A stretch of 48,426 bases of DNA, from contig JAJDUR010000095.1 in NCBI GenBank assembly GCA_022826585.1, forward strand, positions 1 to 48,426, in the 5' to 3' direction. Source of the stretch: Dehalococcoidia bacterium. Lineage in GTDB: Bacteria > Chloroflexota > Dehalococcoidia > Tepidiformales > Tepidiformaceae. The translations under genes and the position numbers were made by a program. The notes beneath the pieces are model-generated. The model was not told the DNA's origin, did not search any database, and saw nothing but the letters and a program-made list of their open reading frames with translations. Below are positions 6,345-48,426 of this stretch, one piece after another; the stretch's first letter is position 1; each line of letters begins with the position of its first letter.

Positions 6345-6818
6345 TTATGACGATTCGTCGCCAAAGGTGAGCTCGTTTGTGATGAAAAGCACTCCCGCAG
6401 CGACGTCGACCGCTTCCACAACCGACGCGATCGCCGGTATCAGCGTCTCCCCCGAGGGCCCCTGCACGACGTACACGTCGTTCGCCCCCGTGCTCAGCAC
6501 CTCGCTCACGTGCCCCAGGCTCCGCCCCTCCGCCGTCATCACCTCCAGACCCACGATGTCCGACACCAGGTAGGCGTCCGCCTGCAGCAGCAGTTCGTCC
6601 TCCGCCACTTCGAGCAGTTCACCCCGCGCGTCCTCGACCTGGCTCCGCCGCTCGAGCCCCTCCAGCTTCAGGAGCACCCGGCCCCGGTCCCAGCGCACCC
6701 GCTCGATGCGCCGCCGCCGCCCCTGCAGGTAGACCTCGCCCTCCGGTTGAAGGTTGGGGAGGTCCGGATTGAAGGGCGCGACCCGCAGCTCGCCCGTGTT
6801 GCCGTGCGGGCGCAGCAC
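6345..6818 (-). CDS. rimM: Ribosome maturation factor RimM
   Basis: RimM binds S19 and helps mature the 30S head. The frame shows the N-terminal beta-barrel (HGNTGELRV, VLLKLEGLERRSQVEDARGE), then the PRC barrel (YLVSDIVGLEV, LGHVSEVLSTGANDVYVV, LIPAIASVV). The coordinates begin at the only canonical start near the N-terminus, a GTG at 6818. However, the codons just upstream in the same frame encode GFVAVGR, which aligns with the first strand of RimM and should be part of the protein. There is no ATG, GTG or TTG in frame between the khpA stop (6899) and that segment. So the true start is non-canonical, or there is a sequence error or frameshift. A weak AGCC/GGCT hairpin overlaps the stop codon region at 6329-6344. 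Confidence 0.8.
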   Translation of the reverse strand: MLRPHGNTGELRVAPFNPDLPNLQPEGEVYLQGRRRRIERVRWDRGRVLLKLEGLERRSQVEDARGELLEVAEDELLLQADAYLVSDIVGLEVMTAEGRSLGHVSEVLSTGANDVYVVQGPSGETLIPAIASVVEAVDVAAGVLFITNELTFGDESS

Positions 6819-6898
6819 GCGCCCGACCGCAACGAAGCCCTCGCGGGGCTCGGTGGGGCCGCCTGGATGGGAAGGGGGAGGGGTCGCCGCGCTCGCGG

Positions 6899-7141
6899 CT
6901 AGTCCCCGATCTCGAGGCCGACGCGCACATCCTCGCGGATGGCCGCCACCTTGATCAGCGAGCGCATCGCCGTCGCGATCCGCCCGTCGCGACCGATGAC
7001 CCGACCGATGTCGTCCTCGGCCACGTCCAGGTGCACGATGATGCGCCCGTGGTCGTCGTGCTCGCTCACCTGCACCTCGTCGGGCTCGTCCACGAGCGAC
7101 TTGGCGATGTACTCGATCAGGTTGCCCATCATGGACGCCAT
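6899..7141 (-). CDS. khpA: KH-domain RNA-binding protein KhpA
   Basis: An 80-residue single KH domain with the GxxG loop as VIGRDGRIA and preceding LDVAEDDIGR, matching KhpA, a small RNA-binding protein that works with KhpB in cell-envelope and ribosome-related regulation. It begins two bases after the rpsP stop and is followed by rimM, the usual rpsP-khpA-rimM order. Three ATG codons lie within the first five residues; the family usually starts close to the fifth (MGNLIEYIAKSLV), so the first four residues may not be translated. Confidence 0.92.
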   Translation of the reverse strand: MASMMGNLIEYIAKSLVDEPDEVQVSEHDDHGRIIVHLDVAEDDIGRVIGRDGRIATAMRSLIKVAAIREDVRVGLEIGD

Positions 7142-7143
7142 GG

Positions 7144-7596
7144 CTAGCTCTCCGTGCTCTCGGCGGCGAGGGCGGGCTCGGCCTCGGCCTCCGCCTCGCT
7201 CGTCTCGGCCGGGGCCTCGTCCGATGTTTCCGCCTCGGTGGGCGCCCCTTCTTCGGCACTGGACGCCTCCGCCTCGGCGGCTGCTTCTGCTTCTGCGGGC
7301 GCCTCGGCCCCTGCGGGGGCCTCCGTGGCTGCCGGAGCCTCCGCAACCGCGGCGCCGTTCAGGATGCCGGCCCGCCGCAGGACCTTCTCCGCCGCCTCCG
7401 AGGGCTGCGCGCCCCGCTCAAGCCAGTGGCGGGCGCGATCCGCATTCAGGTCCGACGTAGGAGGGTTGCCGTGGGGGTTGTACGCCCCCAGCGACTCGAG
7501 AAATCTGCCGTCGCGCGGAAAGCGCTGATCGGCCACCACCACGCGGTAGTAGGCCTGTCCCTTCTTCCCAACACGTCGCAGCCGGATACGCAGCAC
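7144..7596 (-). CDS. rpsP: 30S ribosomal protein S16 with long acidic Ala/Glu tail
   Basis: The first 80 or so residues are a standard S16: MLRIRLRRVGKKGQAYYRVV, then DGRFLESLGAYNP and a WLERGAQPSEAAEKVLRRAGI segment. S16 is a 16S rRNA-binding assembly protein. The remaining 65-70 residues are almost wholly Ala, Glu, Pro, Ser and Thr, an acidic low-complexity tail that S16 normally lacks or has only briefly. The start is a GTG at 7596 with a GAGAGGG purine run upstream. It lies just downstream of ffh on the same strand and heads rpsP-khpA-rimM. Confidence 0.93.
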   Translation of the reverse strand: MLRIRLRRVGKKGQAYYRVVVADQRFPRDGRFLESLGAYNPHGNPPTSDLNADRARHWLERGAQPSEAAEKVLRRAGILNGAAVAEAPAATEAPAGAEAPAEAEAAAEAEASSAEEGAPTEAETSDEAPAETSEAEAEAEPALAAESTES

Positions 7597-38040: not shown

Positions 38041-38607
38041 CTAGAAGCGGCGCGAGTCCCAGAGGACATCGCCGTGGCCGCCGAGCTGGTTCTGGAGGCG
38101 TGAGGCGACGAAGAGCAGGTCGCTGAGGCGGTTGAGGTAGGGCGAGACGAATTCGCCGACCTGTTCCTCGCGTCCGAGGGTGAACGTGAGGCGCTCCGCG
38201 CGGCGGCAGATGGTGCGGGCGAGGTGGAGGTGGGCGGCCGTGGCGTCGCCGCCGGGCAGGACGAAGCTGGTGAGGGGCTCCAGGTCGTCGTTCCAGTCAT
38301 CGATCCAGGCTTCGAGCTGCTCCACGTGGCGGGCTTCGACGCGCGGCCCGGTAGCCTCCTCGCCGGGCTCTCGGGGCGTGGCGAGTTCGGCGCCGAGGTT
38401 GAAGAGCACCTGCTGGATGACCCCGAACGGCTCCGTCAGCGGTTCTTCCAGGCCCGCTGCCACGGCGATGCCGATGGCGCTGTTCAACTCGTCGACGGTG
38501 CCGTAAGCCTCGATGCGGAGGCTGTCCTTTGCGACGCGCTGGCCGCCGGCGAGGGCGGTGGTGCCGTCGTCGCCGGCGCGGGTGTAGACACGGTTGATGC
38601 GAACCAT
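38041..38607 (-). CDS. PduO-type cob(I)alamin adenosyltransferase
   Basis: From the ATG at 38607 the 188-residue protein has VYTRAGDDGTTALAGGQRV (ATP-binding), EAYGTVDELNSAIG and the C-terminal block ICRRAERL and NRLSDLLFVASR. It attaches adenosine to cobalamin to make adenosylcobalamin. In a cell with methylmalonyl-CoA or transcarboxylase chemistry this cofactor would feed methylmalonyl-CoA mutase, but no mutase is in the window. It is convergent with the YjeF_N gene and divergent from the Cys-rich protein that follows. Confidence 0.92.
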   Translation of the reverse strand: MVRINRVYTRAGDDGTTALAGGQRVAKDSLRIEAYGTVDELNSAIGIAVAAGLEEPLTEPFGVIQQVLFNLGAELATPREPGEEATGPRVEARHVEQLEAWIDDWNDDLEPLTSFVLPGGDATAAHLHLARTICRRAERLTFTLGREEQVGEFVSPYLNRLSDLLFVASRLQNQLGGHGDVLWDSRRF

Positions 38608-38679
38608 GGGCCAAGCATGCCGGAGGCGGTGGCCGTGGACCACCCCGCCCCCTTTCATCGACGGGCATCGGAGTAGAGA

Positions 38680-38931
38680 ATGCGGGCGGAGGTTGCCGTG
38701 CCCGAGACGACCCGCTGTCAGCGCTGCCTGAAGTCCATTGAGGGCGAGCCCCACATGATGGCGGCGCGGCCCTACTGCTGCTCGAGCTGTTCGGTCGGTT
38801 CCGCCTGCGTGCACCAGGGGGTGCGGCGGGGATCCGCCATCCGGCGATACGACGGGAATTTCGACCGCTTCCGCGAGGTGGCGCGTCGCCCCGGGCCGTA
38901 TGAGCGGGACCGCCGGTTCGGCGCGGGTTGA
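38680..38931 (+). CDS. Small Cys-rich protein, putative zinc binder
   Basis: The 83-residue protein has Cys13-x2-Cys16, then the CCSSC cluster (33-37) and Cys43 in a basic, otherwise ordered sequence (RCQRCLKSI, PYCCSSCSVGSACVHQ). I do not recognise a family, but the cysteine order suggests a metal-binding treble-clef-like knuckle. It has GGAG six bases before the ATG, and the next gene (FmdB-type) begins within 31 bases, so the two small zinc proteins may be linked. Coding status is likely but not certain. Confidence 0.5.
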   Translation: MRAEVAVPETTRCQRCLKSIEGEPHMMAARPYCCSSCSVGSACVHQGVRRGSAIRRYDGNFDRFREVARRPGPYERDRRFGAG

Positions 38932-38962
38932 CCTAGCGGGCGACCCTCTCCACCATCGCGCC

Positions 38963-39262
38963 ATGGCTCTCTACGAATACCAGTGCCCTGACTGCGGCGA
39001 GCGCTTCGAGAAGCGGATGCCGATGGGCGACGCCCTCCAGCGAATACCCTGCCCCGCGTGTGATTCACAGGCGCAGAAGGTCATCGGGAACTTCGCGGTC
39101 GTGGGACGGGCGGAAGCGGGTGTGGGAGACGGCCCCGCACCGTGGGAGGACGGCGGTGACGGCGATGGGGAAGGCGGCGACCTCGACGCTCCCGGCGCCG
39201 ACGACCTCACGCATCACGGGCACAGCCACGGACACTCGCACGGCCATCCGCATCCCCACTAG
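38963..39262 (+). CDS. FmdB-family zinc-ribbon protein with His-rich tail
   Basis: The 99-residue protein starts MALYEYQCPDCGERFEKRM, with a second Cys pair in RIPCPACDSQAQK, the FmdB zinc-ribbon regulatory protein pattern. An acidic Gly/Asp stretch follows, then a C-terminus of His-Gly-His-Ser repeats ending HGHPHPH, twelve or so histidines, which could bind metal. FmdB proteins are small and poorly characterised; regulation of formamidase was proposed in one case. The His-rich tail is unusual for the family and suggests a nickel/zinc store or chaperone. Confidence 0.8.
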   Translation: MALYEYQCPDCGERFEKRMPMGDALQRIPCPACDSQAQKVIGNFAVVGRAEAGVGDGPAPWEDGGDGDGEGGDLDAPGADDLTHHGHSHGHSHGHPHPH

Positions 39263-39311
39263 GGACACCCCCGGCCACTAGTTGACGCTTGCTTGCGATG
39301 TGGAAAGCAAT

Positions 39312-39331
39312 GGTATATGGTTGCCCATACC
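39312..39331 (+). promoter_or_regulatory. Candidate operator upstream of the second toxin-antitoxin pair
   Basis: GGTAT (39312-39316) and ATACC (39327-39331) form a short inverted repeat with an inner GG/CC pair. It overlaps a TTGCGA-17-TATGGT promoter-like pair (39293-39321) and the first possible start codon. By analogy with other RHH antitoxins it may be the autoregulatory site; the evidence is weaker than for the first pair. Confidence 0.3.
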
Positions 39332-39685
39332 GTGAAGAAGACGACTATCAACATTGAGGACGCCGTCATGGAACGGCTCAAGGAAGAAGCCGCGCGTCGC
39401 CAGACGACCATGACCGCGCTTATCGAGGCTGGGATCCGGCGGATCCTCGCCGAGGGCGAGACGCCTGCCCCGGCGGCTGGTGAACTGCCGCCCCTGCCAA
39501 GCTGGCACGGCGGTGAATTCCTCGTGGACATAACCGATCGAGACGCGCTCTACGAGGTGCTCGACCGAGAACGCGACGAGCGGCTCTATGGTAAGTCCTC
39601 CCGTCCTGAGGTGGCCGCAGTGGCAGAAGAGCCTGCGGCCTACGATGCCGGTGAGAAGACTTCGACCGGGGCGGACGACAGCTAG
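39317..39685 (+). CDS. Ribbon-helix-helix antitoxin of the second toxin-antitoxin pair
   Basis: A 122-residue protein with an RHH segment TTINIEDAVMERLKEEAARRQTTMTALIEAGIRRIL near the N-terminus and an acidic tail. It would bind the operator and its toxin. The ATG at 39317 is used here; a GTG at 39332 (giving MKKTTINIE) is as likely, since antitoxins often start directly at the ribbon strand. Its TAG overlaps the GTG start of the PIN toxin gene by one base, indicating co-translation. Confidence 0.78.
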   Translation: MVAHTVKKTTINIEDAVMERLKEEAARRQTTMTALIEAGIRRILAEGETPAPAAGELPPLPSWHGGEFLVDITDRDALYEVLDRERDERLYGKSSRPEVAAVAEEPAAYDAGEKTSTGADDS

Positions 39686-40119
39686 TGCGGGCCGTCGACA
39701 CGAACGTGCTGCTCTACGCTGCCAACGTGGAGTCAGGTTTGTATGAGGCGTGTCGGCAGAAGCTCAACGAGTGGCGGCGGGGTCCGTCGCCGACGTTTCT
39801 GACCTGGAACGTCTGCTATGAGTTCCTGAGGCAGGCCACGCAAGCGCGTGTCCTGATGGTCCCGTGGGACGCCGCCCACGCCCTGCATTTCCTCGATCAG
39901 TTGCTCGCTTCGCCCGGCTTTTCGCTCTTGACCCCAACGAACCGTCACGCCGCGGTGCTTGCTCAGACTCTGGAGGAACTGCCGCGCTTGCGGGGAGCCA
40001 TCCTCCACGACCTCCACACCGCAGTGCTGATGCGGGAGCACGGGATCAGCCAGATATGCACCAGGGACCGAGACTTTTACCGCTTCCCGTTCCTGACGGT
40101 GGTGGACCCGCTCGAGTAA
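39685..40119 (+). CDS. vapC: PIN-domain ribonuclease toxin (VapC-like)
   Basis: A 144-residue PIN protein with Asp5 in VDTNVLLYA, Glu in NVCYEFLRQA and the acidic ICTRDRDFYRF near the end. This type matches the TA_VapC family of RNA-cutting toxins. The GTG start lies inside the antitoxin stop. It is a second, unrelated pair: sequence, antitoxin and operator all differ from the 31.2 kb pair. The pair ends in a strong hairpin terminator. Confidence 0.86.
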   Translation: MRAVDTNVLLYAANVESGLYEACRQKLNEWRRGPSPTFLTWNVCYEFLRQATQARVLMVPWDAAHALHFLDQLLASPGFSLLTPTNRHAAVLAQTLEELPRLRGAILHDLHTAVLMREHGISQICTRDRDFYRFPFLTVVDPLE

Positions 40120-40123
40120 CGAA

Positions 40124-40149
40124 GAGGCCCCGCCGAACGGCGGGGCCTC
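40124..40149. terminator. Bidirectional hairpin terminator
   Basis: GAGGCCCCGCC (40124-40134) and GGCGGGGCCTC (40139-40149) form a perfect 11-bp stem with a four-base loop. It lies between the stops of the convergent PIN-toxin (40119) and acyl-CoA dehydrogenase (40174) genes. The U tract is weak on both sides, but the stem is very stable. Confidence 0.75.
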
Positions 40150-40173
40150 CAGCTTGTTGCCGGAACGACCGGG

Positions 40174-41283
40174 CTAGATCTCCAGCATGGCCGCGACTTG
40201 CTCGCGGTGGTAGTCGGCGTCGCCCCAGAAGAGCTCGGCGCGCTTCTGGCGGCGGAAGTAGAGCTGGATGATGTAGTCCTTGGTGAAGCCGATACCGCCG
40301 TGTATCTGCTGGCCGTGGGCCACCACGCGCCGGCTGGCTTCGCTGCACCAGGCCTTCGCCATGGAGGTATCCATGTTCTGGGCGGGATCGTTCTCGCTGG
40401 TGGACCAGGCGGCCTTGTAGGTTATGAAGCGCATGCCGTCGACATCGGTGACCATGTCGGCGGCCTTGTGCTGGATCGCCTGGAAGGAGCCGATGGGGCG
40501 GCCGAACTGGACGCGCTCCTTGGCGTAGTTGACGGCGATCTCGAAGTCCTTCTGGGCGAGGCCGACGAGGTAGGCGTTCTCGAGGTTCACGGCGATGTTG
40601 CGGCCGCGCATGCTCGTCTCGCCGTCGACGGGCATGACATCTTCGGCGGCTACGCGGACGTTGTTAAGGACGACCTCGGCCTGCTTGTCGCTGGCGATGG
40701 TCTTGAGGAGGTTGACCTCCACGCCCGCCTGGTCGCGGGCGATGATGAAGTCCGCGAGCTTGCCGTCCGGCGTATTGCCGACGACGTGCAGGTAGTCCGC
40801 CACGTTGGCGTCGGGGACGAAGAGCTTGGTGCCGTTGAGCACGCAGTCGTCACCGTCCTGGGTGGCGGTCAGGGTGAAGCCGGCTCGGTCCCAGCGGCCG
40901 CTCTCTTCGGTCACGGCGTAGGTGTGGATGGCGGCGCCGCTGGCGATGCCGGGAAGGTACTTGGCCTTCTGGGCATCGCTGCCGGCGATGACGAGCCAGG
41001 CGGCGCAGGTGGCGTTGGGGATGAAGGGGCCGGGCACGAGGGCGCGCCCGAACTCTTCCACCAGGACGCAGAGGTCGAGGTAGGAGAAGCCGGAGCCGCC
41101 CTGCTCCTCGGGGATCATGAGGCCCTGCCAGCCGAGATCGGCCATCTTCTTCCAGAGGTCGGGGCTGTAGCCGGCCTCGTCCTCTTCCATGGCCCTCACG
41201 TGCTCCTCGGGGCACTCGTTCTCGAGGAAGTCGCGCGCCGAGTCGCGGATCAGGGTCTGCTCTTCGCTGAGGCTCAGATCCAT
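40174..41283 (-). CDS. Acyl-CoA dehydrogenase (short form)
   Basis: From the ATG at 41283 the 369-residue flavoprotein begins MDLSLSEEQTLIRDSARDFL, has PEEQGGSGFSYLDLCVL, a truncated flavin-binding middle (AVTEESGRWDRAGFTLTATQDGDDCVLNGTKLFV in separate blocks) and IHGGIGFTKDYIIQLYFRRQ near the end. The middle motif is weaker than in the 34.2 kb paralogue, as in the members that form pairs or act on bulky side chains. It may be a subunit of a heteromer with another dehydrogenase. The substrate is unknown. Confidence 0.88.
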   Translation of the reverse strand: MDLSLSEEQTLIRDSARDFLENECPEEHVRAMEEDEAGYSPDLWKKMADLGWQGLMIPEEQGGSGFSYLDLCVLVEEFGRALVPGPFIPNATCAAWLVIAGSDAQKAKYLPGIASGAAIHTYAVTEESGRWDRAGFTLTATQDGDDCVLNGTKLFVPDANVADYLHVVGNTPDGKLADFIIARDQAGVEVNLLKTIASDKQAEVVLNNVRVAAEDVMPVDGETSMRGRNIAVNLENAYLVGLAQKDFEIAVNYAKERVQFGRPIGSFQAIQHKAADMVTDVDGMRFITYKAAWSTSENDPAQNMDTSMAKAWCSEASRRVVAHGQQIHGGIGFTKDYIIQLYFRRQKRAELFWGDADYHREQVAAMLEI

Positions 41284-41382
41284 CGTTGTCCGTCCTTCAT
41301 CAGGGTCGCGAAGCGGGCGCACAGAAACGCGCCCCCTTCGCGGGGGTTAGCCGCGCGAGTCTAGCACGGGCTCGGGTGAGCG

Positions 41383-41739
41383 TCAGGCGAGCTCCACCCA
41401 GGAGTCGAAGTAGCGTTCCTGGAAGTGCACGGCGGCGGCAATCGCGGGGGAATCCCAGGCGCGTTCCGGGTGCAGAACGGCTACGAGCTTGTCCTCCACG
41501 TCGTCCCGGCGGCGGACGATGGCGATGACGGTGGCTTCGCAGTGTTCGAGCGGCCCGTCGGCGTCGAGGACGTAGACGTCGAGGGGGTGACCGTCGGGGG
41601 CGAGGGTGCCGGGGATAAAGCCGTAGTTGACGGGATAGGTGATGTCGTCCTCGCGCGGGTGGGGGCTGCCGAGGGGGCGATCCATCTCGACGGTGACGTG
41701 CCGCCCGGCCCAGTCGGCGAGGAGGAGGTTGGGGTCCAC
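41383..41739 (-). CDS. Short inorganic pyrophosphatase-family protein
   Basis: From the GTG at 41739 the 118-residue protein resembles the small Clostridium-type pyrophosphatase branch: VTVEMDRPLGSPHP, ITYPVNYGFIPGTLAPDGHPLDVYVLDADGPL and ATVIAIVRRRDD. The Asp residues of DVYVLD and the Tyr/Lys-like positions of class I pyrophosphatases are kept. It is shorter than classical bacterial enzymes (about 160-180 residues), and true pyrophosphatase activity is inferred. The start adds no poorly conserved residues; a longer frame upstream is rejected as non-coding. Confidence 0.75.
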   Translation of the reverse strand: MDPNLLLADWAGRHVTVEMDRPLGSPHPREDDITYPVNYGFIPGTLAPDGHPLDVYVLDADGPLEHCEATVIAIVRRRDDVEDKLVAVLHPERAWDSPAIAAAVHFQERYFDSWVELA

Positions 41740-41901
41740 TGCTATCCGCCCTTCGGCAGGTCGTGAAGCGGGCGCGGGGGCGCACGCCCTTGCCGCGTGT
41801 GAGTGCAAGTCTGCCACGGGAGCCCGGGGCCGTCCGGCAGATGTGAACTACAATTTTCATCCGTATGATTATTCGTGGAGCTTGGGAAAAGGTTGTCCTT
41901 G

Positions 41902-43083
41902 ATGAAACTGGTGAGCGTCCTGTCTCTTGTTGCGGCGGTCCTGGTGGGGGTCTCGATCGTTGTCGCCCAGGAGCAGGGCAGTCCGACCGTGGAGGTCCGC
42001 GTCTGGGAAAACGCGGACGATCCCTCGACGAATTACCTGAGCATCCGCGTTGACGGTGGGAGGTGGCGGAACCAGGCGCTGGCGCTCGACGACGTGAGCC
42101 CGACCGGACGCTTTCGCTATGCGGATCTGAGGCTTGCTCCGGACGGGACGGAGGCCGTGGCAGTGCGGTTCTGGGAGAGCGTCGGCGACTCCTCCATCAA
42201 CTTCCTCAGCGTGCGTGTGGGAGGCGGGAGCTGGCACCTCCATGCCGTTCCCGCCGGTGAAGTGAGCGAGACGGGACGTTTCCACTACGGAGACATCCCC
42301 GACGCCGCCTCCAGTTCAAGCGCTCCCGCATCACCAAGCCGGGGCACTTCAACGTCCACCCCCACGCCAACGCCCGAGCCGGAGGAGTGCTACCCGTACC
42401 AGGTCTGGGTCAACGGGGAATACGGGGGAGGCCAGGAGGACCCATTCGACGAAGAGGATCTGGCGATATTCGAGCGCGTGTATCCGGGCCAGTGGGAGAC
42501 CCGGGCGGTCGAGTGCCCCGAGGCCACGCCAACGCCCACATCCACACCAACGCCAACACCGACACCCACCCCTACGGCGACGCCCACCCCTACTCCCACG
42601 CAGGAGCCGGAGCCTGAGTCCGAGGAGTGCTACCCCTACCAGGTCTGGATCAACGGGGAGTACAACGGGGGCCAGGAGTTTCCCTTCGAAGAAGAGGACC
42701 TGGCGATCTTCGAGCGTGTGTATCCGGGACAGTGGGAGACCCGGGAGGTCGAGTGCCCCGAGAACTCCGGCGGCAGTCCGTCACCGGATCCGGGCGGGTC
42801 CGCGCCAGCGCCGACACCAACGCCCACCCCCACACCCACGCCTACGCCCACACCCACGCCGACGGCCACCCCTACGCCGACGCCCACACCTACGCCCACA
42901 CCTACGCCCACGGCCACCCCCACACCGGAGCCGGAGCCGGAGGAAGAGTGCTTGCCCTACCAGCTGTGGATCAACGGGCAGTATGCCGGGGGCCAGGAGA
43001 CTCCCTTCGAAGAAGAGGACCTGGCGATATTCGAGCGTGTGTATCCGGGGCAGTGGGAGATCCGGGAAGTCACGTGTCCCTGA
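41902..43083 (+). CDS. Exported protein with duplicated N-terminal and triplicated Cys-bracketed C-terminal modules
   Basis: No named family is recognised. From the ATG at 41902 the 393-residue protein has a signal peptide (1-22, MKLVSVLSLVAAVLVGVSIV). Two related repeats follow at about 30-75 and 86-131 (VEVRVWENADDPSTNYLS; VAVRFWESVGDSSINFLS; both end in TGRF-x-Y-x-D). Three C-terminal modules follow, separated by Thr-Pro linkers: PYQVWVNGEYGGGQEDPF, DLAIFERVYPGQWE and a closing Cys-Pro. Each is bracketed by cysteines exactly 42 residues apart (163/205, 243/285, 350/392). It is probably a surface or secreted binding protein. The close internal identity of modules 1-3 shows recent duplication. 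GGAAAAGG lies nine bases before the ATG. Confidence 0.85.
   Translation: MKLVSVLSLVAAVLVGVSIVVAQEQGSPTVEVRVWENADDPSTNYLSIRVDGGRWRNQALALDDVSPTGRFRYADLRLAPDGTEAVAVRFWESVGDSSINFLSVRVGGGSWHLHAVPAGEVSETGRFHYGDIPDAASSSSAPASPSRGTSTSTPTPTPEPEECYPYQVWVNGEYGGGQEDPFDEEDLAIFERVYPGQWETRAVECPEATPTPTSTPTPTPTPTPTATPTPTPTQEPEPESEECYPYQVWINGEYNGGQEFPFEEEDLAIFERVYPGQWETREVECPENSGGSPSPDPGGSAPAPTPTPTPTPTPTPTPTPTATPTPTPTPTPTPTPTATPTPEPEPEEECLPYQLWINGQYAGGQETPFEEEDLAIFERVYPGQWEIREVTCP
41989..42294 (+). repeat. Two N-terminal protein repeats
   Basis: Codons 30-75 (41989-42126) and 86-131 (42157-42294) encode two diverged copies of a 46-residue unit (V-x-VR-x-WE...D-x-S-x-N-x-LS-x-RV-x-GG-x-W...VS-x-TGRF-x-Y-x-D). 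The DNA has diverged enough that the relation shows only in protein. Confidence 0.7.
42382..43080 (+). repeat. Three direct repeats of a 138-bp module with Thr-Pro linkers
   Basis: Copies at 42382-42519, 42622-42759 and 42943-43080 encode the Cys-bracketed module and are highly similar at the DNA level. Between them lie simple ACGCCCACACC-type tracts encoding Thr-Pro linkers of 36 and 63 codons or so. The unequal linker lengths suggest repeat slippage, so assembly here may be unreliable. Confidence 0.85.
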
Positions 43084-43171
43084 AACCGGCATGAAGTGAC
43101 CCGCGCACGCCGGACCGCCGGGCCGCTGTCTGGCCGTCGGCGCTCGGACTCCAGGGGCTGCCCGAGTTCGG

Positions 43172-44353
43172 TTAGCGGTTGCGCTGGACGAAGCGGCCGA
43201 TTCGCTCGAGGGCGCGCTCGATCTGTTCGTAGCCGCTGGCGTAGCAGGCGCGGACGAAGCCCTCGCCGCAGGCACCGAAGGCAACGCCGGGCACGACCGC
43301 GACGCGCTCCTCCTCGAGCAAGCGCTCGCTGAAGGTGGTGCTGTCCAGGCCCGTGGGGCGGATGTCGGGGAAGGCGTAGAAGGCGCCGCGGGGGCGGAAG
43401 GCGGGGAGGCCGACGGCGTGGAGGCCATCGACCATGAGGCGGCGGCGGCGGTCGTACTCGGCCAGCATCTCCTGGACGAAGCTCTCCCCGTGCTGAAGGG
43501 CCGCGAGAGCGGCGTACTGGGCAGCCGTGGGTGCGGACATCATGACGTACTGGTGGACCTTCATGGCGGCCTCGGCGAGGGGTGCGGGGGCGGCGAGCCA
43601 CCCGATACGCCAGCCGGTCATGGCGTAGGTCTTGCTGAAGCCGCCGATGAGGATGGTGCGGTCGCGCATGCCCTCGATGGAGGAGAAACAGGTGTGCTCG
43701 CCCTCGTAGGTGAGGCGGGCGTACAGCTCGTCGCTGATGACGGCGAGGTCGTTGGCGGCGGCGACCTCGGCGACGGCTTCCAGGTCGGGGCGGTCCATGG
43801 TCGCGCCTGTGGGGTTGGCGGGGTAGCCGAAGAGCAGGGCCTTCGTCTGCTCGGTGACGCGCTCGGAGACGTCGCTCGCGAGCAGGCGGAACTCGTGCTC
43901 GGCGCTGGTGGGAACGGGGCGGAAGCGGCCCTTGGCCATGATGACGGCGGGTTCGTAGGCGACGTAGCTGGGGTCGGGGCAGAGGACCTCGTCGCCATCG
44001 TCGATGAGCGAGCGGAGGGCGATGTCGAAGGCCTCGCTGGAGCCGCTGGTGACGACGATCTCGGAGGCGGGGTCGTAGGAAACGCCGTAGAGGGTCTGGA
44101 TCTCCTCACTGAGAGCCTCGCGGAGCTCCAGGAGGCCATAGTTGGAGGTGTAGTGGGTGTCCCCGCGCTCGATGCTCTCCAGGGCGGCGCGGCGGATGGG
44201 TTCGGGCGTTACATAATCGGGCTCGCCGACGCCGAGTGAGATGACGTCGTCAATGGTGCTGAGGAGGTCGAAGAACTTGCGGATTCCGCTGGCGGGCAGG
44301 GAGGCGAGGCTCCGGGAGATGAAGCGCTCGGCCCCGGGGGAATCGTGGTCCAC
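43172..44353 (-). CDS. Class I/II pyridoxal-phosphate aminotransferase
   Basis: From the GTG at 44353 the 393-residue enzyme has the PLP lysine Lys241 in LIGGFSKTYAMTGWR, Asp208 and Tyr211 in ISDELYAR, Asn180-Pro181 in GYPANPTGAT, and TSGSSEAFDIAL near the N-terminus. It belongs to the aspartate/aromatic aminotransferase family I and would transfer the amino group between an amino acid and an oxo-acid; the substrate cannot be read. A longer upstream frame to 44446 adds a non-conserved N-terminus. A GC hairpin (44396-44414) lies just before it. Confidence 0.9.
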   Translation of the reverse strand: MDHDSPGAERFISRSLASLPASGIRKFFDLLSTIDDVISLGVGEPDYVTPEPIRRAALESIERGDTHYTSNYGLLELREALSEEIQTLYGVSYDPASEIVVTSGSSEAFDIALRSLIDDGDEVLCPDPSYVAYEPAVIMAKGRFRPVPTSAEHEFRLLASDVSERVTEQTKALLFGYPANPTGATMDRPDLEAVAEVAAANDLAVISDELYARLTYEGEHTCFSSIEGMRDRTILIGGFSKTYAMTGWRIGWLAAPAPLAEAAMKVHQYVMMSAPTAAQYAALAALQHGESFVQEMLAEYDRRRRLMVDGLHAVGLPAFRPRGAFYAFPDIRPTGLDSTTFSERLLEEERVAVVPGVAFGACGEGFVRACYASGYEQIERALERIGRFVQRNR

Positions 44354-44395
44354 GGCCCCGTTCCTTCCGCCCCCCGCCGGTGGCGGATACGAAAG

Positions 44396-44414
44396 AGCCG
44401 CCCCGCGGGCGGCT
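44396..44414 (-). terminator. GC-rich hairpin between gatA and the aminotransferase gene
   Basis: AGCCGCCC and GGGCGGCT form an eight-base-pair stem with a three-base loop, followed on the minus strand by CTTTCG. It lies downstream of gatA and 43 bases before the aminotransferase start. The U tract is poor, so it is a weak terminator or attenuator candidate. Confidence 0.45.
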
Positions 44415-44570
44415 TCGTTCTCTGTGCGTCTTTGAACCGCTCGCATGCTACCTGCGCGCTTGCGCCGCCGCCGCAGCGGCAGTGGGGAGGCACGTCGCAG
44501 TTGGCTTACGGTCCACGATTCGGACTCTGAGCATGGCGGCCATTACGGTCAAGGTTTGTGACCGGGGGCG

Positions 44571-46028
44571 CTACAGCGCCGCGAGGCGGTTGGCCTGGCC
44601 GAGCCCTGCCTCGAAGGCGTGGCCGATCTGGAGGATCGTGCCCTCGTCGCCGACGTCGCCGATGATCTGGAGGCCGACGGGCAGGCCCTCGCTGAGGCCG
44701 CAGGGGAGGCTGAGGGCGGGGAGGCCGGCGACGGCGCTGGGGAGCGTGTAGATGTCGTTCAGGTACATGGCGTAGGGGTCGTCGAGCTTCTCGCCGACGG
44801 GGAAGGCGACGCCGGGGGTGGTGGGGGTGACGAGCGCGTCGTAGCGGGTGAAGGCGTCGCGGAACTCGTTGGTGATGAGGGTCCGGACCTTCTGCGCCTT
44901 CAGGTAGAACTGGTCGTAGTAGCCGGCGCTGAGGGCGTAGACGCCCAGCATGATGCGGCGCTTCACCTCGTCGCCGAAGCCCTGCTCGCGGGTCTGCTCC
45001 ATGTTCTCCCACATGCTGCCGCCGCGTTCGCTGAGGCCGTACTTGACGCCGTCGTAGCGGGCGAGGTTGGAGCTCGCCTCGCTGGGGGCGATGAGGTAAT
45101 AGACGGCGAGCGCGTGCTCGGTCATGGGCAGGGAGAGGTCGGTGTCGACCTCGCAGCCCAGCGATTCGAGGCGGGCGAGGGACTCCTCGATGCGCTCGCG
45201 GACGCCGGGCTCCATCCCCTCGACGAAGTATTCGCGAGGCACGCCGATCTTCTTGCCGGCGATGTCGCGGCCGAGGTAGTGGCGCATGTCGGGCCGGGGC
45301 GCGGGGTCGCTGGTGGAGTCGCGGGGATCGTGGCTGCCGATGCCATCGAGGATGGTGGCGACGTCCTCGACGTCGCGGCCGATGGGGCCGACCTGGTCGA
45401 GGGAGCTGCCGAAGGCGATGATGCCGAAACGGCTGACGCGGCCGTAGGTGGGGTCGAGGCCGACGACGCCGCAGAGGGCGGCGGGTTGGCGGATGCTGCC
45501 GCCGGTGTCGCTCCCGAGGGCGGCGAGGCACTCTCCCGCGGCGACGGCAGCGGCGGAGCCCCCGGAGCTGCCGCCGGGGACGCGGTCGGTGTCCCAGGGG
45601 TTGCGCGTGGGACCGAAGGCGGAGTGCTCGGTGCTGGAGCCCATGGCGAACTCGTCCATGTTCGCCTTGCCCACCATGACGGCGCCGGCGCGCTTCAGCT
45701 GCTCGTACACGTGGCTGTCGTAGGGGGGGATGAAGTCCCCGAGCATGCGCGAGCCCGCAGTGGTGCGGACGCCCTTCGTGATGATGAGGTCCTTGACGGC
45801 GAAGGGGATGCCGGTGAGGGGCGTGGCCGTGCCGGCGGCGAAGCGGGCGTCGGCCTCGCGGGCCTGCTCGAGGGCGATCTCGTCGGTGCGGGTGACGTAG
45901 GCGTTGACGCGGTCCTCGACCGCATCGACGCGGGCGAGCACGGACTCGGTCAGCTCGACGGCGGAGAAGGCCTTTGCGCGGAGGCCGTCCTGGGCCTCGT
46001 GCGCGGTCAGCTCCCAGAGCTCGCTCAT
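44571..46028 (-). CDS. gatA: Glutamyl-tRNA(Gln)/aspartyl-tRNA(Asn) amidotransferase subunit A
   Basis: The 485-residue amidase has the Ser-cisSer-Lys triad at Lys79 (PFAVKD), Ser154 (PGGSSGGSAA) and Ser178 (DTGGSIRQP), identical in numbering to characterised GatA enzymes. It liberates ammonia from glutamine and channels it to GatB for conversion of mischarged Glu-tRNA(Gln) or Asp-tRNA(Asn). The ATG at 46028 overlaps the gatC stop by four bases. GatB is not in the window. The open frame continues on the minus strand beyond the ATG into antisense of the penicillin-binding protein gene and is not coding. Confidence 0.96.
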   Translation of the reverse strand: MSELWELTAHEAQDGLRAKAFSAVELTESVLARVDAVEDRVNAYVTRTDEIALEQAREADARFAAGTATPLTGIPFAVKDLIITKGVRTTAGSRMLGDFIPPYDSHVYEQLKRAGAVMVGKANMDEFAMGSSTEHSAFGPTRNPWDTDRVPGGSSGGSAAAVAAGECLAALGSDTGGSIRQPAALCGVVGLDPTYGRVSRFGIIAFGSSLDQVGPIGRDVEDVATILDGIGSHDPRDSTSDPAPRPDMRHYLGRDIAGKKIGVPREYFVEGMEPGVRERIEESLARLESLGCEVDTDLSLPMTEHALAVYYLIAPSEASSNLARYDGVKYGLSERGGSMWENMEQTREQGFGDEVKRRIMLGVYALSAGYYDQFYLKAQKVRTLITNEFRDAFTRYDALVTPTTPGVAFPVGEKLDDPYAMYLNDIYTLPSAVAGLPALSLPCGLSEGLPVGLQIIGDVGDEGTILQIGHAFEAGLGQANRLAAL

Positions 46029-46312
46029 TCGAGCACGGCTCGCACGCGAATGAGGCCGTCCTCGACCTCGGGCGCGTTGCTGAGGGCATCGTCGCGCTTG
46101 AGGGAGGGGGCCACGGAGTCGCTGCGCATGATGTTGTGCAGGGGGAGGGGATGGGCGGTCGGCTCGACGCCCTCGGTATCGACGGCGGCGAGGGCGTCGA
46201 AGTGGTCGAGGATGTCGGAGAGCTGGACGGTGAGGCGGTCGATCTCGGCGTCGCTCAGGCCGAGGCGGGCAAGCCTGCCGATGTGGAGCACCTGTTCGCG
46301 GGAGATGGGCAT
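46025..46312 (-). CDS. gatC: Glutamyl-tRNA(Gln)/aspartyl-tRNA(Asn) amidotransferase subunit C
   Basis: From the ATG at 46312 the 95-residue protein has LHIGRLARLGLSDAEIDRLTVQLSDIL and the C-terminal segment VEPTAHPLPLHNIMRSDSV, the complete GatC pattern. GatC holds the A and B subunits together. It is coupled to gatA by a four-base overlap. TACGAT lies six bases before the start. It is divergent from the penicillin-binding protein gene, 133 bases away. Confidence 0.94.
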   Translation of the reverse strand: MPISREQVLHIGRLARLGLSDAEIDRLTVQLSDILDHFDALAAVDTEGVEPTAHPLPLHNIMRSDSVAPSLKRDDALSNAPEVEDGLIRVRAVLE

Positions 46313-46318
46313 GGCGCG

Positions 46319-46324
46319 ATCGTA
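46319..46324 (-). promoter_or_regulatory. Candidate -10 element (TACGAT) of gatCA
   Basis: TACGAT lies six bases before the gatC ATG on the minus strand; no Shine-Dalgarno is visible, matching the leaderless pattern of other genes in the window. Confidence 0.45.
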
Positions 46325-46445
46325 CACACGGTCTCCCGCACGTGCCCGCAACAGGCCGTTTTGCTAGGCTCGAAGGTGATGCGGCACCCCGCCCATCCCC
46401 CGCTGGGGCCTTTCTTCCCTTCTCCGGCCACGTGCGCGTCGGATC

Positions 46446-48426
46446 ATGGCTAGCCGGGTCGTCATCCGCCGCCGCCTGCGGGCCCGCCGCGTGCGCGTCC
46501 AGCGGAGGGGATTCCCGCTCTGGGCGATCGGCCTGTTGGTGGCCGGCTTCCTCGCCTCGGCGTCGCTGGCAGGGGCGGCCGGGACCGTGTTCGCCGTCTA
46601 CCAGCACTACGCTCGCGACTACGTGCCCATCGAGGACCTGCTGATCGAGCGGCAGGTGGGGATCACCCGCATCTTCGACCGCACCGGGAGGGTGGAGCTG
46701 GGGGTCCTCACGAACCCCGCGCAGCAGCTCCTGCACCCGGTCGCGCTGGACGACATCTCGCAGAGCATGATCGACGCCACCGTCTCGACGGAGGACAACG
46801 ACTTCTGGACGCACCCGGGCGTGAACTACCGGGGCCTCGCCCGGGCCGCCTGGGAGAACTACGTCGGTGGTGGCATCGGAACGGGAACGGGCGGCTCGTC
46901 GATCACGCAGCAGCTCATCAAGAACGTCTACATCTGCGGCAGCTTTACCGACCCCGAAGACCCGTGCGTGGCCGAGCGCACCGTCGACCGGAAGCTGCGG
47001 GAGATCGCCTACGCGATCGAGCTGGAGCAGGACTACACGAAAGACCAAATCCTGACCTGGTACCTGAACCAGATCTCGTATGCGGATCGCTACGTTGGGG
47101 TGCAGGCGGCGGCGGAGGGGTACTTCCGCAAGGACGCCTCTGAGCTGACGCTGGCGGAGTCGGCGATGCTGGCGGGGATCCCCCAGTTCCCCACGCTCTA
47201 CCACCCACGCCTGAACTGCCATCGCGACGACGACGGCAACTGCATCCTCGATGCGCTGGGGCGGATGACGGTCGGGGGGCCGGCCAAGGTGCGGCAGGAG
47301 GACGTGATCGACCTGATGGTCGTGCACGGCTGGCTCACCTTCTCGGAGGCGGAGGAGGCGAAGGCGGAAACCCTGTACGTGTTCCCGGCGGCCACGACGG
47401 CGGCCCAGGATGCGTCGGCCTTCATCGACAACCAGGTGGAGCCGAGGCTGGTGCGCATGTGCGAGGCGGGCCTCCTGCCGAAGCTGGAGAGCTCGCCCGA
47501 CTGTCTGACGAGTGTGCACAGCGCGGGCTGGACCGTGCGCACGACGCTGGACTGGACCGCGACCCAGGACGCGCTGGAGATGGCGCGGGCGGCGATCGAG
47601 CGGGGCCTGGAGGCGGGTTGCGAGTGCCACAACGCCGCGATCGTCACGATCGAGCCGGAGACAGGCGAGCTGCTCGTCTATGCGCCGAACCGGGACCCGT
47701 CGTTGACGGCCGACCCGCGGGTGGCGGGCAACGTCGACCAGCTCGTGGAGATCAACCAGCCGGGGTCGGCGTTCAAGCCGGCGGTGTACCTGGCCTGGTT
47801 CGAGTACGCGAACAAGGCGCCGATGAGCATCCTCTGGGATACGAACCCGCTGGAGCTCGAGGGCGAGGACGTCGAGATCGTCAATCCCCGGGCGAGGCCG
47901 AGGACGGAGGGCCTGGTCAGCGCGCGGGCGGCCCTGGGAGGCTCGCAGAACGTGCCCGCCTACCGCGCGGCGCAGGAGGCCGGCATCGAGAACGTGATCA
48001 CGATGGCGAAGCTGCTGGGAATCACCACCATCCAGCAGCAGTTCGACCCCACCTTCGTGTCCCACCTCGACATCTACTACGGCGCGTCCATCGCGACCGG
48101 AGGGGCCAACATCCGGGCGGTGGACATGGCGTACATGAACGCGACCATCGCGAACATGGGCGTGATGGTGGGCGTGCCCCACCATGCGACCACGGTTGCG
48201 CCCGAGACGCTGAACAACACCGCCTTCGACGAGGGCGTGGACTACGAGAACGCGATCCAGCAGAAGCTCGACTTCCAGCGGGGGCACCTGCGGCTGCCGG
48301 GGACGCGCCCCCTCGACCCGGTCGTGGTGCTGGAGGTGCGCGACATCAACGACCGCGTGATCTTCCTGCACCAGGGCCCGCAGCGGATCCGGACGGTGGA
48401 TGCGGGGAGCGTCTGGCTGCTGCACA
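46446..48426 (+). CDS. Bifunctional class A penicillin-binding protein, 3' end outside the window
   Basis: From the ATG at 46446 the frame runs open to the edge (660 codons seen). A basic cytoplasmic start precedes one membrane segment (about 24-50). The GT51 glycosyltransferase has Glu116 in VSTEDNDFWTHPG and GGSSITQQLIKN. The transpeptidase has Ser441-x2-Lys444 in QPGSAFKPAVYLA and a Ser-x-Asn in LGGSQNVPA (500-502); the KTG motif should lie outside. It polymerises and cross-links peptidoglycan. Cysteines at 164/174, 258/266, 339/353 and 392/394 occur in pairs in the extracytoplasmic part, unusual for the family. No Shine-Dalgarno is clear. It is divergent from gatC. Confidence 0.93.
   Translation, partial: MASRVVIRRRLRARRVRVQRRGFPLWAIGLLVAGFLASASLAGAAGTVFAVYQHYARDYVPIEDLLIERQVGITRIFDRTGRVELGVLTNPAQQLLHPVALDDISQSMIDATVSTEDNDFWTHPGVNYRGLARAAWENYVGGGIGTGTGGSSITQQLIKNVYICGSFTDPEDPCVAERTVDRKLREIAYAIELEQDYTKDQILTWYLNQISYADRYVGVQAAAEGYFRKDASELTLAESAMLAGIPQFPTLYHPRLNCHRDDDGNCILDALGRMTVGGPAKVRQEDVIDLMVVHGWLTFSEAEEAKAETLYVFPAATTAAQDASAFIDNQVEPRLVRMCEAGLLPKLESSPDCLTSVHSAGWTVRTTLDWTATQDALEMARAAIERGLEAGCECHNAAIVTIEPETGELLVYAPNRDPSLTADPRVAGNVDQLVEINQPGSAFKPAVYLAWFEYANKAPMSILWDTNPLELEGEDVEIVNPRARPRTEGLVSARAALGGSQNVPAYRAAQEAGIENVITMAKLLGITTIQQQFDPTFVSHLDIYYGASIATGGANIRAVDMAYMNATIANMGVMVGVPHHATTVAPETLNNTAFDEGVDYENAIQQKLDFQRGHLRLPGTRPLDPVVVLEVRDINDRVIFLHQGPQRIRTVDAGSVWLLH

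Follow-up and report, generated by a model that had tools for sequence, protein, structure and literature searches.

The locus considered here raises the question of what is made by a gene that encodes two kinds of small repeated unit and lies where six sister species carry no gene at all. The window, i.e., the entire stretch analyzed, comprises 48,426 nucleotides of contig JAJDUR010000095.1, assigned to a member of the Tepidiformaceae (Chloroflexota, Dehalococcoidia). An earlier note had drawn attention to the exact spacing of the cysteines in the encoded protein. The analysis presented below leads to the conclusion that the 393-residue product is no artefact but a rare protein, either surface-located or secreted, made of two undescribed small domains. 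Its anatomy is solid, while its function we infer.

Anatomy and authenticity of the 393-residue protein

Re-reading of the layout (Table 1) bore out the earlier description of an exported protein in which a signal peptide, corresponding to hydrophobic residues 1-22 in the sequence, is followed by a 2+3 arrangement of repeated units joined by linkers that are chiefly Thr-Pro. The protein contains only six cysteines, found precisely where they had been placed, namely, at positions 163/205, 243/285 and 350/392, with the members of each pair being 42 residues apart. The two N-terminal units (N-units) had been described as copies of a 46-residue repeat; two copies are indeed present, but each spans some 50-55 residues. 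At a period of 56, 24 of 50 aligned residues are identical (48%), a similarity with a score equaled by none of 2,000 shuffles (0/2000). The claim that this pair is older than the three C-terminal modules (Cys modules) holds, given its DNA identity of 60%. By contrast, to call the C-terminal modules nearly identical in DNA was an overstatement, as these share 81-87% identity at the DNA level and 78-89% at the protein level, with a synonymous divergence of 0.26-0.71.

Table 1. Features of the locus. Positions are those of the window, unless another genome is named.
Feature	Position	Strand	Remarks
Whole gene, 393-residue exported protein	41902..43083	+	ATG 41902, TGA 43081; orthologue of like layout in G278
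Signal peptide, residues 1-22, MKLVSVLSLVAAVLVGVSIVVA; without lipobox Cys	41902..41967	+	Read from the sequence
N-unit 1	41986..42144	+	Profile A3 match, E 9.7e-23
N-unit 2	42151..42303	+	Profile A3 match, E 4.6e-19; 48% identity to N-unit 1
Ser/Thr/Pro linker 1, residues 136-161	42307..42384	+	
Cys module 1, residues 162-206, Cys 163 and 205	42385..42519	+	
Thr-Pro linker 2, residues 207-241	42520..42624	+	
Cys module 2, residues 242-286, Cys 243 and 285	42625..42759	+	Predicted strand-strand-helix-strand, pLDDT 92.4
Thr-Pro linker 3, residues 287-348	42760..42945	+	
Cys module 3, residues 349-393, Cys 350 and 392; C-terminal end of the protein	42946..43080	+	
Segment absent from six sister species, where both flanking genes adjoin	41740..43169	.	
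Flanking gene, inorganic pyrophosphatase (PF00719)	41383..41739	-	Start probably GTG at ~41739; most relatives have ATG
Flanking gene, class I/II aminotransferase (PF00155)	43172..44446	-	
N-unit gene of G005	G005:C1:2236000-2250000 (L071), 6371-7219 and upstream	-	C-terminus Cys-containing, without Pfam match

Since long Thr-Pro-encoding DNA repeats assemble poorly, and since the reading frame is broken in one relative, the possibility, already voiced in the earlier note, that the repeats represent an assembly artefact, or that the ORF is not a gene, was weighed. This has next to no probability. Another genome, G278, belonging to genus g75 of a different family of the same class, contains a 366-codon frame encoding a signal segment, two N-units and three Cys modules. 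Because the same layout exists in this independent genome, the 2+3 protein is not an artefact of assembly; the linkers of the G278 orthologue are unlike those of the window protein, while the 2+3 order is kept. Moreover, dN/dS values of 0.07-0.23 between the Cys modules of the window and those of g75 point to purifying selection on the protein sequence of these modules, and the flanks of the gene are syntenic with sister genomes.

Cys modules were also found in two further g75 species, G099 and G366, the copy in the latter being cut by the end of the contig, with none being found in the fourth g75 genome. The G099 contig corresponds, on the basis of matching sequence, to the public record VXMU01000100.1, from 'Chloroflexi bacterium SB0661_bin_44'. 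There (L038 4403-5150), the N-unit is shortened and the linker and Cys modules lie in another frame. Either the gene is broken, in which case it may be dispensable in G099, or the assembly is wrong at this point.

The Cys module as a conserved mini-domain

Of 393 sampled genomes of the class, the Cys module is present in only four, namely, the window genome and three of the four g75 species. The phylum sample yielded no further genome, apart from a chance match in G649 (E 2e-4) that was rejected, as it covers only 16 residues within an aldehyde dehydrogenase. When the nine modules from the four species were compared, 24 of 45 columns proved to be invariant, including both cysteines and the motifs NG-x-Y-x-GGQ, PF, IFE and YPGQWE. 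The spacing of 42 residues between the cysteines is likewise the same in all nine. The exact spacing is the ordinary outcome of repeated homologous modules. As the paired cysteines are invariant in an exported protein, a disulfide probably joins the ends of each module.

The statement that neither repeated unit belongs to a recognizable family stands insofar as Pfam, NCBIfam and PDB sequences offer none for either. Searched alone, the Cys module matched no Pfam or NCBIfam family at E<=10 and no family among PDB sequences, where only weak matches to hairpin motifs of 16-17 residues were obtained; those to YteR and glutaredoxin-3 were rejected on these grounds. When five sequences were submitted to AlphaFold2, a confident strand-strand-helix-strand (ββαβ) model was returned (pLDDT 92.4), in which one cysteine lies to either side of the structured core. 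This agrees with the earlier picture of separate units carried by a flexible stalk, here of Thr-Pro. Foldseek comparison of this model with the PDB and with viral models gave no significant match, and in comparison with VIA, the best Z was 2.5 and no chain stood out. The Cys module is, accordingly, a compact and well-conserved mini-domain that has no Pfam entry and is seen in only four sequenced species.

One resemblance encountered was to the BRK domain, itself GYF-like (PMC7096718), which raised the possibility that the Cys module is a distant relative of the GYF/BRK peptide-binding domains (PF07533, PF02213). In both, strand-strand-helix-strand elements come in the same order over ~45 residues, with a conserved Pro after strand 2 and another before strand 3. 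The BRK domain structure 2ckc ranked fourth in the Foldseek search (TM 0.40), and when pairwise scores against BRK sequences from the PDB were averaged, only 32 of 1,000 column shuffles did as well. Yet, the Foldseek E value of 3.8 is not significant, the hhalign profile-profile probability was 0.09, a value equaled by 237 of 300 shuffles, and the Cys bracket is not a feature of BRK or GYF domains. Likewise, BRK was absent among the VIA rows for the Cys module, and neither BRK nor GYF was matched in Pfam. A genome search with GYF_2 (PF14237) gave no match anywhere, not even in the controls. With no significant match in sequence or fold, a GYF/BRK origin of the Cys module is very doubtful. The likeness is treated as a common arrangement, with the sequence tests failing to support common descent.

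Probable gain of the gene and history of its modules

In six sister species, the pyrophosphatase and aminotransferase genes are separated by ~20 bases or less, as compared to 1.43 kb in the window, where the interval holds only the gene for the 393-residue protein, on the strand opposite to that of its neighbors. In G008, a more distant member of the same genus, there is likewise no room for the gene. The simplest reading is that the gene was gained in the lineage of the window, an insertion consistent with horizontal gain. The window and g75 sequences are only ~71-78% identical, similar to core genes of these families, such that the donor was not a sampled g75 species. The gene in g75 lies elsewhere, at a locus common to G278 and G366. 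In G005, a sister species, the same interval contains, on the same strand, a different gene with a single N-unit, a Thr-Pro linker and another C-terminus, and hence it appears that N-unit genes have entered this interval on more than one occasion.

Carriage on a contaminant contig was rejected, as the flanks are syntenic with genomes of the same genus at 81-93% identity. Carriage by a phage or plasmid was also rejected, as neither the records of phages and plasmids nor IMG/VR yielded a match. Across window positions 38041-48426, DNA identity to the six sister species steps from 88-93% to the right of the insertion to ~81-85% to its left, and a recombination boundary may lie here. Separately, a pair of small genes at 39293-40119 (+), of which the second encodes a PIN domain (PF01850), probably specifies a VapBC-like toxin-antitoxin; in alignments with G005 and G008, this stretch falls within a gap.

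The earlier note had also read the C-terminal modules as recently duplicated. However, a genus from a different family also has the three-module form, and a tree built from the DNA of the modules splits the three Cys modules of the window from all g75 modules with a support of 93, inner nodes being weak. Because the modules group by genome and both lineages possess three-module proteins, the copies are better read as having been homogenized or amplified within each lineage, in place of a simple recent duplication.

The N-unit family and a proposed role for the protein

A search with a profile built from 13 N-units revealed 14 copies in the genome of the window and gave at least 16 matches in most sister species, meaning that the N-unit, for all its absence from the family databases, is not unique to this protein. 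N-units were found in 20 of the 393 genomes of the class, comprising all nine of genus g1 and members of families f2 and f21, with f56 contributing a single weak match. In a phylum sample of 400 genomes, none besides these was matched at E 1e-5. Among 51 distinct N-unit frames, 38 contain two units and 13 a single one, and in 46 of the 51, the first unit follows the end of a hydrophobic segment at a distance of 5-20 residues (median 13). The suggestion that the modules be sought in other combinations in related genomes was thus fruitful for the N-unit, which precedes many unrelated exported proteins. The payloads recognized by Pfam include GH3, Sod_Cu (Cu/Zn SOD), alpha-2-macroglobulin (A2M), NHL, LRR, ankyrin, Trypsin_2, PA14 with lipase, Peripla_BP_6, GmrSD_C and Big_2/CarboxypepD_reg.

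When the window pair and same-genome copies on other payloads were compared to Pfam, nothing scored above the cut-off (best E 0.022), and no PDB sequence was matched; weak Pfam matches to Stb3, DUF6212 and others, all below the cut-off, were rejected. The N-unit is, therefore, a Pfam-invisible module that the genus of the window, along with a few others of the class, shares among the N-termini of unrelated exported proteins, right after the export signal. This wider family is a more interesting find than is the spacing of the cysteines.

Two further observations concern individual members of the family. One N-unit protein (G005, L094 871-1500) combines a signal-like segment with a payload of GmrSD_C type, i.e., HNH nuclease-like, which is unexpected in a protein that is exported. 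Elsewhere (L115, G003:C49:48674-56131 and G007:C30:107459-112688), three to four genes encoding proteins of ~800 residues, each with an N-unit pair, form tandem arrays, with NHL propellers in those examined.

Many exported proteins share small modules for surface anchoring or targeting, such as the SLH, LysM, WxL and Por sorting domains. Like these, the N-unit is small, often in tandem and fixed at one end of many unrelated exported proteins; unlike these, it matches no Pfam or NCBIfam family and is found at the N-terminus, immediately behind the signal. As the N-unit occupies one fixed place on unrelated enzymes, a role in location and not in catalysis offers the best explanation. Tentatively, then, the N-unit may be an undescribed surface-retention or sorting domain that attaches dozens of unrelated exported proteins to an unusual envelope in a few marine Chloroflexota lineages and that here displays new disulfide-closed heads. 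The marine origin of the organism is presumed from its relatives. SAR202 Chloroflexi genomes from sponge symbionts have been reported to lack genes for peptidoglycan biosynthesis (PMC6306507); should the window lineage resemble these, peptidoglycan-binding analogues would not apply.

The N-unit could instead bind targets such as host or environmental glycans, much like a carbohydrate-binding module (CBM), on freely secreted proteins, with the Cys modules serving as extra heads. The presence of N-units on enzymes of secreted type (GH3, PA14-lipase, trypsin-like) and their mostly paired occurrence, as is often the case for binding modules, would fit such a role. It is, however, unlikely, given that payloads such as Cu/Zn SOD, a periplasmic-type binding protein and alpha-2-macroglobulin have no need for substrate targeting, that the N-unit is nearly always directly behind the signal segment, and that the score against CBM_25 was negligible (E 0.044, below the cut-off).

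As to the protein as a whole, the reading preferred here, to which we assign a probability of about 0.5, is that the N-units locate the protein at the surface, while three heads on a stalk bind ligand. After secretion, the paired N-units would retain the protein at the cell surface or guide it there, the extended Thr-Pro stretches would serve as a stalk, and the three strand-strand-helix-strand heads, the ends of each joined by one disulfide, would bind the same ligand multivalently, possibly a protein or glycan of the host, a neighbor or the matrix. Binding by the heads is suggested by their repetition, together with the lack of a catalytic domain. Signal peptides, folded modules and Thr-Pro linkers are familiar from secreted enzymes and CBM proteins in which several modules are joined by Pro-Thr linkers. 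The 393-residue protein shares all three, yet differs in containing neither a catalytic domain nor a known CBM and in having heads that are absent from Pfam. Counting against the preferred reading, sequence searches matched no ligand-binding family and fold comparison none convincingly, the N-unit pair of the window was modeled from a single sequence too poorly for fold matching (pLDDT 65.6), and the frame is broken in the G099 assembly.

Alternatively, the Cys modules could be secreted peptide-like effectors or inhibitors, such as protease inhibitors or toxin-like mini-proteins, arranged in tandem on a carrier. In favor of this are their small size, putative disulfide bracket, repetition and strongly conserved sequence, together with their scattered occurrence and the gain of the gene at a locus where it had been absent. 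Nonetheless, this is quite improbable, as each unit has only one potential disulfide, there is no likeness to inhibitor or toxin families in Pfam or among PDB sequences, and dN/dS is low, where diversification would be expected in conflict. Surface retention by the N-units and ligand binding by the Cys heads remain the roles that we would propose.

To our knowledge, it is not understood how uncultured marine Chloroflexota hold their surface proteins. By marking the N-terminus of many exported proteins, the N-unit provides a testable handle on surface-protein retention, as well as a sequence signature for spotting the extracellular proteins of these Chloroflexota, while the ligand of the Cys module could be sought directly.
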